From: a bacterium
Lineage (GTDB): Bacteria; Auribacterota; UBA3054
Assembly (NCBI GenBank): GCA_017963805.1
Contig: JAGCTE010000048.1
Coordinates: forward strand, 1-64,000
Direction: 5' to 3'
Length of the DNA stretch: 64,000 nt
Within the stretch, counting starts at the first letter, position 1. Every line of letters starts with the position of its first letter. Below are positions 11,235-13,276 of this stretch, piece by piece. The position numbers were made by a program, and so were the translations under genes. The notes beneath the pieces are model-generated. The model was given only the letters and a program-made list of their open reading frames with translations. It ran no database searches and had not been told where the DNA came from.

Positions 11235-11809
11235 AAGCGGTACATTTGACACAATGCGCCTCCACTATGGACGAAGCGAGGCTCCTTATAGACAAAGGGG
11301 AAGCTGCGCCGTTCTATCTTTTCAGCGACCGCCAGTCGAAGGGCAGGGGACAGTACGGCAAAAGCTGGGAATCGTACGAGGGCAACCTTTTCCTCTCCGT
11401 TGCGGTGAAAAGCGGCGCGGTGAGGGAGCCGGCGCTCCTTTCGCTGACGGTGGGGATCTCCGTGGCGGAAGCCCTGGCGAAGGAGGGCCTGCGCCCAAAT
11501 CTCGTCTGGCCGAACGACGTCATGATAGACGGCGCGAAGACGGCGGGGATACTCATAGAGAAGCACGGCGGGGCCTTCATAGCGGGCGTGGGACTGAACC
11601 TGAACGCCCCCGGCGGGCCGACGGTCTTGGAAGACGGCAGGCTTATAAATTCCGTCTCCTTTCACACCGGCAGGAAAGAGGACGTCGAAGGCTGGGCAAT
11701 GACTTTGGCGGAAGCGGTAATGAACAGAATCGATTTGGGAGAGGAAGAGATACTGCCTTCCTGGCGTCTCTTCTCCCAAGCGCAGCATACAGGAGAAATG
11801 GCGGAATGA
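11231..11809 (+). CDS. birA: Biotin--[acetyl-CoA carboxylase] ligase, short form
   Basis: Activates biotin with ATP and attaches it to the biotin carboxyl carrier protein. The 192-residue protein has the catalytic core motifs SKGRGQYGKSW (the GRG.G..W loop), VWPNDVMI, KTAGILIE and GVGLNLN. There is no N-terminal helix-turn-helix, so it cannot act as the BirA repressor. It is also short at the C-terminus: the SH3-like domain that usually follows the catalytic domain is missing. The ATG overlaps the nadC stop (ATGA) and its own stop overlaps the next ATG, so the shortness is not explained by a misplaced boundary. Confidence 0.88.
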   Translation: MKAVHLTQCASTMDEARLLIDKGEAAPFYLFSDRQSKGRGQYGKSWESYEGNLFLSVAVKSGAVREPALLSLTVGISVAEALAKEGLRPNLVWPNDVMIDGAKTAGILIEKHGGAFIAGVGLNLNAPGGPTVLEDGRLINSVSFHTGRKEDVEGWAMTLAEAVMNRIDLGEEEILPSWRLFSQAQHTGEMAE

Positions 11810-12291
11810 AATATGAACTTGTAGAGCCGACTTTGGGCATGATGCACAAAGTCTACGAGCTTATAATGAGCGAGGCGGCGGAAGAGAAGCTTCTGCCCCG
11901 CGCCCTCTCGGACCTCTATGAGCACGTCCACGATTTCATCGTGGCTCAGGACAAGGAAACGGGCGAGATAGTGGGCTGCGTGGCCCTCAACATCGTCTGG
12001 GAGGATCTCGGCGAGATACGCTCCCTTACCGTGGCGGAAGGACACAAGGACATGGGCATCGGCAGAATGCTTGTCAACGCCTGCATAGAAGACGCCAAAG
12101 CCCTTGGCTTGAAAAGAATGTTCGCCCTCACCTACGTGCCGAAATTCTTTCTGAAATGCGGATTCAAGAAGATCGAGAAAGAGCGTCTGCCCCACAAGAT
12201 CTGGAGCGTCTGCATCAACTGCCCGAAATTCCCGGACTGCGACGAGCAGGCCGTGGAACTTTTACTGGAAGACAAACCTACCGAACAGTAG
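11806..12291 (+). CDS. GNAT N-acetyltransferase, possibly N-acetylglutamate synthase type
   Basis: A 161-residue single-domain GNAT enzyme. The acetyl-CoA site is visible in the segment SLTVAEGHKDMGIGRMLVNA (the R/Q..G.G.G/A loop), followed by the KCGFKKI strand. The C-terminus has LPHKIW and then CINCPKFPDCDE, a cysteine-bearing tail that I associate with short ArgA-like N-acetylglutamate synthases. That assignment comes from memory of the family and is only probable. It overlaps the birA stop by ATGA and is part of the 7185-14209 operon. No arginine genes are adjacent. Confidence 0.7.
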   Translation: MKYELVEPTLGMMHKVYELIMSEAAEEKLLPRALSDLYEHVHDFIVAQDKETGEIVGCVALNIVWEDLGEIRSLTVAEGHKDMGIGRMLVNACIEDAKALGLKRMFALTYVPKFFLKCGFKKIEKERLPHKIWSVCINCPKFPDCDEQAVELLLEDKPTEQ

Positions 12292-12320: not shown

Positions 12321-12884
12321 ATGTCAGATTTCATCAGCAACACCTCGCCGCAGCGTGAAAAACCTCTGAGAGTCATGGGACTCTGGGAAGAAAAAGACCA
12401 GAACGGAAACATGATGCTCTCGGGCAACCTCACAGGGCGCGCCCGCGCCATCATCACCGTCAACAACTTCAAGAAGGGAGACCGGGACCCCGACTACTAT
12501 CTCTCGGTTGCCCAGACGGAGAGGCCGGACCAGCAGGGCGAGGAGCAGCCTCAGGAACCGCAGGTCAGATCCACCATCAGGCTGACCGGGCTTTGGCGCA
12601 ACACGGACCGCAAGGGCAAAGATTACCTCAGCGGCTCTCTGCAGTCCTTAAGGATCCTGATCTTCTCCAACAACTATCATCAGTCCGACAGGGACCCGGA
12701 TTACATTCTCTACGTCTGCCAGAGCGACCGCCAGCCCAACCAGCAGGGCGGCTTCTCAAGCCAGGGCGGCTTCATGAACCAGGGCGGAGGCTTCGGCTCC
12801 AGGGGCGGAAGCCAAAACGAAAGCCATGGCAGCCAGACTTCCGGTTCCGGAGACATCAACGAATACGGAGAACCTCCCTTCTGA
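12321..12884 (+). CDS. Duplicated small-domain protein with Gly/Gln-rich linker and SSB-like C-terminal tail
   Basis: A 187-residue protein with two copies of one domain of about 55 residues. Copy 1 (about 15-66) has MGLWEEKDQNGN, LSGNL and DRDPDYYLSVAQ; copy 2 (about 85-136) has TGLWRNTDRKGK, LSGSL and DRDPDYILYVCQ. Copy 2 resembles small phage- and plasmid-type proteins of the form GLWkn.dk.G..YLSG..., loosely DUF736-like. From 138 on it is a low-complexity Gly/Gln/Ser/Asn stretch that ends in an acidic peptide DINEYGEPPF. This layout imitates the flexible linker and PPF-type tip by which SSB recruits DNA repair and replication proteins. A nucleic-acid role is an inference. AGGAG lies before the ATG. 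Confidence 0.7.
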   Translation: MSDFISNTSPQREKPLRVMGLWEEKDQNGNMMLSGNLTGRARAIITVNNFKKGDRDPDYYLSVAQTERPDQQGEEQPQEPQVRSTIRLTGLWRNTDRKGKDYLSGSLQSLRILIFSNNYHQSDRDPDYILYVCQSDRQPNQQGGFSSQGGFMNQGGGFGSRGGSQNESHGSQTSGSGDINEYGEPPF

Positions 12885-13276
12885 TGAAAGAAGTAGAACT
12901 TACCTACCGCGTCCCGTACGCTGACACCGACCAGATGGGCGTCGTTTACTACGCCAATTACCTGGTCTTCTTTGAGAGGAGCCGCAACGAGCTGATGCGA
13001 AGCCTGGGGCTCACTTACAAGGAAATGGAAGAAAAAGGCATCGGGCTTCCCGTTCTGGAAGCCCATGTCGAATATCATTCGCCCGCCCGCTACGACGATT
13101 CTCTTACGATAAGAGCGAGCGTGGACGGTTTCGAAGGCATAAAACTAAGAGTAAAGTGTGAAGTGAAAAGGGGAGAGACGCTCCTTGTGGAAGGATATAC
13201 GCTGCACGTTTGTTTGGATTACAAGCAGCTGCGTCCCGTGAGGCCTCCCGAATGGTTCAGCGATCTTCTTAAATAA
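12884..13276 (+). CDS. ybgC: YbgC-type acyl-CoA thioesterase
   Basis: A 130-residue hot-dog-fold thioesterase that hydrolyses acyl-CoA esters. The catalytic loop YADTDQMGVVYYANYL contains the conserved Asp and the GVVYYANY helix start, followed by FFERSRNEL. In many Gram-negative bacteria ybgC belongs to the tol-pal cluster; here tolB is far away, at 39424. The ATG overlaps the preceding stop by one base (TGATG), so the two are translationally coupled. Confidence 0.9.
   Translation: MKEVELTYRVPYADTDQMGVVYYANYLVFFERSRNELMRSLGLTYKEMEEKGIGLPVLEAHVEYHSPARYDDSLTIRASVDGFEGIKLRVKCEVKRGETLLVEGYTLHVCLDYKQLRPVRPPEWFSDLLK

Follow-up and report, generated by a model that had tools for sequence, protein, structure and literature searches.

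The canonical single-strand DNA-binding protein (SSB) of bacteria binds ssDNA without sequence preference and is essential; to our knowledge, the OB-fold SSB is regarded as universal as well as essential in bacteria. We know of no DDIPF tip in ThermoDBP of the archaea. ThermoDBP is reported to be a leucine-zipper dimer and the unrelated protein found instead in the Thermoproteales, a lineage that has lost its OB-fold SSB, which makes it a precedent for displacement (PMC8998557). Two further studies describe how the DDDIPF motif of the SSB C-terminus acts with DnaG and how RecO is bound through the last nine residues (PMC5872125, PMC7913777), and another reports that a phage SSB unlike the bacterial one partly restored growth of an Escherichia coli ssb-1 strain (PMC3208561), so that functional SSB swaps appear feasible. 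In the literature searched (subscription journals and preprints lying mostly outside its scope), no report was found of a bacterial lineage without an OB-fold SSB or of the protein described below, which we call a mini-SSB candidate.

The gene for this protein lies in a 64,000-nucleotide stretch of bacterial DNA, the whole of which is here called the window. Its product shares with canonical SSB (PF00436) the order of a core (DNA-binding in SSB and predicted to be so here), a linker, and an acidic PF tip, and the six canonical SSBs recovered from the same phylum carry the same tip type, one of them also ending in PPF. The two differ in the core, the OB fold being unrelated to the beta meander of ~53 residues predicted for the window protein, and in location, canonical ssb belonging to the rpsF-rpsR locus and the mini-SSB gene to a birA-GNAT-ybgC locus. 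In the 187-aa protein, a short N-terminus precedes the first domain copy (Table 1). An earlier note on this DNA had described two copies of ~55 residues with shared motifs, a Gly/Gln/Ser linker with the acidic end DINEYGEPPF, and a housekeeping-operon setting, and each of these descriptions holds: aligned along 53 residues, the copies are 45% identical (E 3e-16 when compared with each other by BLASTP) and have GLW, LSG.L, and DRDPDY in common; linker and tip are read in the 187-aa ORF; and the gene run comprises nadC, birA, GNAT, the mini-SSB gene, and the YbgC-type thioesterase gene, the neighbours being named from the Pfam families that they match, with the motif order GNAT–mini-SSB gene–ybgC kept in 14/14 loci, which represent four families within the order. 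In comparisons of the window gene with five relatives, the domains are under purifying selection (dN/dS 0.06–0.21), and linker plus tip are looser than the domains (0.10–0.68). Because the domain dN/dS is low and PPF is kept in 8/8 genus proteins although the linker shifts in length and sequence, the architecture of duplicated domain plus tip is more than chance. Scans of the window protein against Pfam, NCBIfam, and PHROG gave nothing above cut-off, and PDB sequence searches no match below E 0.2.

Table 1 Features of the mini-SSB candidate gene and its immediate neighbours (positions in the window).
Feature	Position	Strand	Basis
GNAT acetyltransferase, kept upstream neighbour	11806..12291	+	Pfam; synteny
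Mini-SSB candidate ORF	12321..12884	+	187 aa plus TGA
Beta domain, copy 1	12366..12524	+	Profile match E 1.0e-29; copy-to-copy BLASTP
Spacer between domain copies, Gln/Glu rich	12525..12575	+	Sequence
Beta domain, copy 2	12576..12734 (start about; BLASTP ~12573)	+	Profile match E 3.0e-31
Gly/Gln/Ser linker, length varying among species	12735..12851	+	Alignment; dN/dS
SSB-like tip DINEYGEPPF	12852..12881	+	PPF in 8/8 genus proteins; EDDIPF in six single-copy order relatives
YbgC-type thioesterase; ATG overlaps mini-SSB gene TGA	12884..13276	+	Sequence; Pfam 4HBT; synteny

With the window protein as query, 14 of 98 genomes matched, all within its own order (order and phylum being the kinship labels of the genome search), and a domain profile run over 384 genomes returned the same 14; beyond the order it matched G282 clearly (E 1.5e-14), and there were six weak matches, three of whose loci were viewed by eye. 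A second search centred on G282 (385 genomes) yielded G282 itself and one weak match, with no further clear relative. Within the phylum, a mini-SSB homologue is thus present in 14/15 order genomes against 0/29 others, G011 being the order genome in which the profile found none. The seven other genus members each have two domain copies and the PPF tip; G008, G009, G010, G012, G013, and G014 have a single copy and end in EDDIPF. The relative in G282, which lies outside the phylum, is a tailless protein of 64 aa (L044 1437-1674), set between an integrase, from which one small ORF separates it, and a CHC2/Toprim primase gene that directly follows.

The distribution of canonical SSB, for which PF00436 was the only family searched, is nearly exclusive of that of the mini-SSB within the phylum: PF00436 matches 28/44 genomes, 1/15 in the order and 27/29 outside (Fisher p 1.5e-8, to be read knowing that a single clade is a single event, so that the counts are not independent). 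The order genomes without a match include G000, G003, and G005 at 90–93% completeness, all 15 order assemblies being multi-contig drafts; in the two genomes outside the order that gave no match (G040 and G043), rpsR lies less than 240 bases from the contig start, so that ssb may be cut off there. The sole match in the order is on contig C156 of G013 (L022), beside a kinase gene. This SSB is 41–45% identical to the six phylum SSBs, which are mutually 54–69% identical, and the kinase is 32–37% identical to seven order kinases, which are mutually 44–87% identical; the G+C content around the SSB match (0.399) does not differ from that at G013's own locus (0.391) and is neutral on foreign origin. 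Judged by these alignments, C156 is probably a contamination of the public genome, and we rejected its SSB as the true SSB of G013, the contig being foreign by two genes.

At the usual location of ssb, the gene order pth-rpsF-ssb-rpsR-rplI was named by eye in four of five sister-phylum ssb loci (L024, L025, L027, and L029), the fifth (L023) having ssb elsewhere than between rpsF and rpsR. No SSB motif was found at the rpsF-rpsR loci of the order (15/15 loci). Since rpsF and rpsR stand together on one locus in 14/15 order genomes, the rpsF of G008 being missed by the motif, an assembly gap was rejected as the source of the SSB loss. The gap between rpsF and rpsR is occupied in the order by a lipoprotein-like ORF of ~270–320 aa (10 loci by motif, L070 by eye), and the one case scanned (L069 556-1410, on contig C10 of G000) matches no Pfam family. 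RecO_C (PF02565) was likewise matched in 0/15 order genomes against 26/29 other phylum genomes, with some positive genomes scoring as weakly as E 4e-6, so that the search could have overlooked a RecO that has diverged. The joint loss of RecO fits a changed SSB; it also takes away one known partner of the SSB tip.

A search of related genomes for the domain together with a PPF-type tail, as the earlier note had proposed, gave a uniform answer within the order, where 14/14 homologues end in PPF or DDIPF; homologues without the tail, which the note had named as a refuting result, were found only outside this chromosomal family, namely the 64-aa relative in G282 and six DUF736 proteins. The genus tip is GEPPF or DDPPF and is less acidic than EDDIPF, a point against an SSB-type role. 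When [DE][DE]IPF followed by a stop was searched as a DNA pattern over 15 whole order genomes, a pattern that leaves LPF and VPF tips outside, G008, G009, G010, and G014 each gave a single match, which is the mini-SSB gene, and G012 gave two, the mini-SSB gene and a site ending in TGG instead of a stop. The mini-SSB gene is therefore the only true site of this kind in these five genomes. In G013, the four matches are the mini-SSB gene, the foreign SSB, a further site at C380:4288-4305, and one TGG site. The pattern had no match in G011 or in G000–G007, in the latter because the tip there is PPF.

Relatives were also found in phages. Two phage proteins have the same motif order as the window protein: UOF80635.1 (L076 5998-6210; 70 aa; tblastn E 1e-2 and 1e-6), which ends in DDIPF and whose gene sits immediately ahead of an exonuclease gene, with DNA polymerase genes upstream of it, and WBK39815.1 (L086 5986-6243; 85 aa; E 2e-4), which ends in EDDLPF and belongs to the same gene run as an Erf annealing protein and an exonuclease. 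Both are annotated as hypothetical and look like unrecognised SSBs; used as queries in the phage collection, they found only themselves. A larger set was reached with a hand-typed phage mini-SSB probe, which gave 117 matches to phage records; among the 40 listed, 30 carry the annotation single-strand DNA-binding protein. Two PHROG models with that label, phrog_18154 and phrog_7364, match the probe, and the phage mini-SSBs discussed here are relatives of this probe rather than proteins assigned to those PHROGs one by one. All ten phage proteins fetched end in an acidic run followed by [ILV]PF; five of the ten genes adjoin a polymerase, annealing-protein, or exonuclease gene, the neighbours of the other five being shown unnamed or not at all. 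It may be only the tail that earned the phage proteins their SSB labels: NCBIfam SSB models match the VP2 and PP101 proteins over the tail only, and the VpV262 record is worded 'similar to single strand DNA binding protein C-terminus'. In IMG/VR, at least 589 stretches encode relatives of the phage family, among the 600 matches listed; of the 80 relatives kept from the matches listed, all but one include their stop codon, and among these 79 the last residues are P[FYW] in 75, a fraction biased upward because the ranking query included the tail. Pfam scans of 35 of the IMG/VR relatives matched DUF736 in ten (best E 0.0018); the Tower domain gave sub-family matches in 8/35 (best E 2.9e-4). Five scans of viral contigs with members of the exact family gave no relatives; plasmids gave no match with the G282 and G014 domains and one weak match (E 0.3) with the phage domain.

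The phage mini-SSBs (such as those of Vibrio phages VP2 and VpV262 and Acinetobacter phage DMU1) resemble the window protein in having one domain of ~50 residues, or two in Vibrio phage VP2 as in the window protein, followed by a linker and an acidic tip, and in carrying a KN..K...PDY motif, and their profile similarity to the window domain exceeds that of all shuffles. They differ in being phage-encoded, the window protein being chromosomal, and in placing LFKN..PDYKG first and W.K.GK.G second, an apparent circular permutation of the motif order of the window domain; alternatively, the two may be colinear, with two similar hairpins in place of a permutation. For the profile comparisons by hhalign, the domain was doubled end to end and each comparison was accompanied by 200 column shuffles. 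The doubled domain scored 61.5 against DUF736 (PF05284; shuffle maximum 19.2; probability 96.9%) and 37.4 against the phage mini-SSBs (shuffle maximum 21.6), 0/200 shuffles reaching the score in either case, and the undoubled domain scored 40.3 (shuffles 18.6) and 29.9 (21.9), respectively; phage mini-SSBs against DUF736 scored 26.5 (shuffle maximum 21.1). Other settings were weaker, the single domain reaching a probability of 79% against DUF736 and the full genus alignment 22.6%; when 35 phage proteins were set against the single domain, the probability was 71.8%, with just 16 columns aligned. The core of canonical SSB (seven sequences, the six phylum SSBs and that of the G013 contig) gave a probability of 0.35%, and the window protein had no match to PF00436 or to any PHROG model, phrog_18154 and phrog_7364 included, at E up to 10.

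The strongest profile score of the window domain is thus to DUF736, with which it shares a PDY segment followed by a W..(T/S)..G..YLS segment, and which differs in comprising plasmid and ICE proteins of unknown function. In direct Pfam scans, the DUF736 scores of the window protein (13.4 bits) and of the G014 relative (18.1) are below the gathering cut-off of 22.1; a DUF736 scan of 59 relatives was silent, as was its control, and so carries no information. Among plasmid records matching DUF736, 810/1189 are typed conjugative, and in a study on Mesorhizobium ICEs, DUF736 genes are reported on all elements compared (PMC8627217). No SSB tip was seen in six DUF736 members readable to their ends. 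A DUF736-type protein of Sphingobium (L083 98-505), whose gene is cut in the stretch read, has an acidic DEDIAPPF towards its C-terminal end.

From these comparisons, we consider it quite likely that the window protein acts as the chromosomal ssDNA-binding protein of its order, a non-OB mini-SSB of phage type that replaces the OB-fold SSB. This reading is based on the opposite distributions of PF00436 (1/15 versus 27/29) and mini-SSB (14/15 versus 0/29), on the missing ssb at the usual rpsF-rpsR locus and the mini-SSB gene being the only true [DE][DE]IPF-stop site in five genomes, on the profile scores against DUF736 and the phage mini-SSBs, which no shuffle reached, and on the phage homologues among replication and recombination genes, the tailless relative beside a primase, and the lack of RecO_C. 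These rumen bacteria and their relatives seem to have lost the standard ssDNA-coating protein and to carry an unrelated phage-type protein with the same docking tail. In the predicted mechanism, the small beta-meander domain would coat ssDNA, as two fused copies in the genus, whose fusion may strengthen binding or define the size of the binding site, and as one copy in the rest of the order; the flexible linker and acidic PF tip would dock replication and repair enzymes in the manner of the SSB C-terminus. The order would have lost the OB-fold SSB from its rpsF-ssb-rpsR locus, and RecO as well, a mini-SSB of the type now common in phages having taken over; transfer would have run from phage to host rather than the reverse, and the mini-SSB would be essential. 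It appears moderately probable that neither OB-fold SSB nor RecO is present in the whole order and that its chromosomes depend on a tip-bearing mini-SSB without an OB fold and of phage origin, a bacterial counterpart of ThermoDBP. The earlier note had foreseen a new kind of non-OB, tip-bearing nucleic-acid hub or SSB competitor. The hub fits the comparative evidence, though it is only in part a new kind: numerous small phage proteins are related to it in sequence and end in a tip of the same type. Competition with SSB was rejected, PF00436 being missing in 14/15 order genomes and the remaining match foreign-looking; with no canonical SSB found in the order to compete with, the protein is better described as a substitute. 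If the replacement is real, a core swapped while the tip is kept would be a natural experiment splitting ssDNA coating from partner docking. It would imply that bacteria can replace the OB core of SSB but not its tip, and would hint at what the many small phage proteins of this large family do, and likewise DUF736, which is widespread and associated with conjugation but has no known function.

Three other explanations have to be weighed against replacement. The protein could be an accessory one that recruits or competes for SSB partners by its tip, the true SSB being a divergent protein missed by PF00436; the search for SSB did consist of this one family, and non-OB ssDNA binders are known elsewhere (PMC8998557). 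We regard this as unlikely, since the two families are distributed almost exclusively of one another, the rpsF-rpsR locus is without an ssb motif, and in five of the six genomes with a single copy [DE][DE]IPF-stop occurs nowhere else, so that any further SSB in them would have to end in a different tip type, such as the LPF or VPF that the pattern excludes. That SSB is present and was merely lost in assembly or binning of draft genomes draws on the multi-contig state of 15/15 assemblies and on G011, which matches neither PF00436 nor the mini-SSB, and is nearly refuted by its absence from 14/15 genomes, three of them at 90–93% completeness, and by rpsF and rpsR lying in one contig stretch in 14/15.

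The strong profile link to DUF736, whose genes are common on conjugative plasmids (810/1189) and are reported on every Mesorhizobium ICE compared in one study (PMC8627217), would also be accounted for if a DUF736-like protein of a mobile element had been domesticated for some other task, such as RNA or dsDNA binding or conjugation, with the tip merely bringing it to replication forks. We find this very improbable in view of the conserved chromosomal operon in 14/14 loci, of a distribution in which the mini-SSB takes the place of SSB, and of the two phage relatives of the same motif order among replication and recombination genes.

The structure models are weak. For the window protein, AlphaFold gave a poor model (pLDDT 47.5) that consists nearly entirely of strands, four to five per copy; Foldseek with this model returned nothing at E 0.001 or below. 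The model of a phage relative is a four-stranded meander (pLDDT 66, domain blocks about 74–84), which had no match in the PDB at E 0.001 or below; VIA-align placed Pur-alpha and a Sub1/PC4 protein among many others with Z under 5; for Borrelia Pur-alpha, 50 residues aligned at 3.2 Å with Z 4.3, tied with unrelated rows. A Pur-alpha/PC4-like ssDNA-binding sheet is taken from these models as a lead only. The charge of the domain also weighs against the mini-SSB reading: it is only mildly positive in the two copies of the window protein (+0.8 and +1.8) and, although it reaches about +4 in three relatives with a single copy, the domain of phage ctOsX528 is negatively charged.
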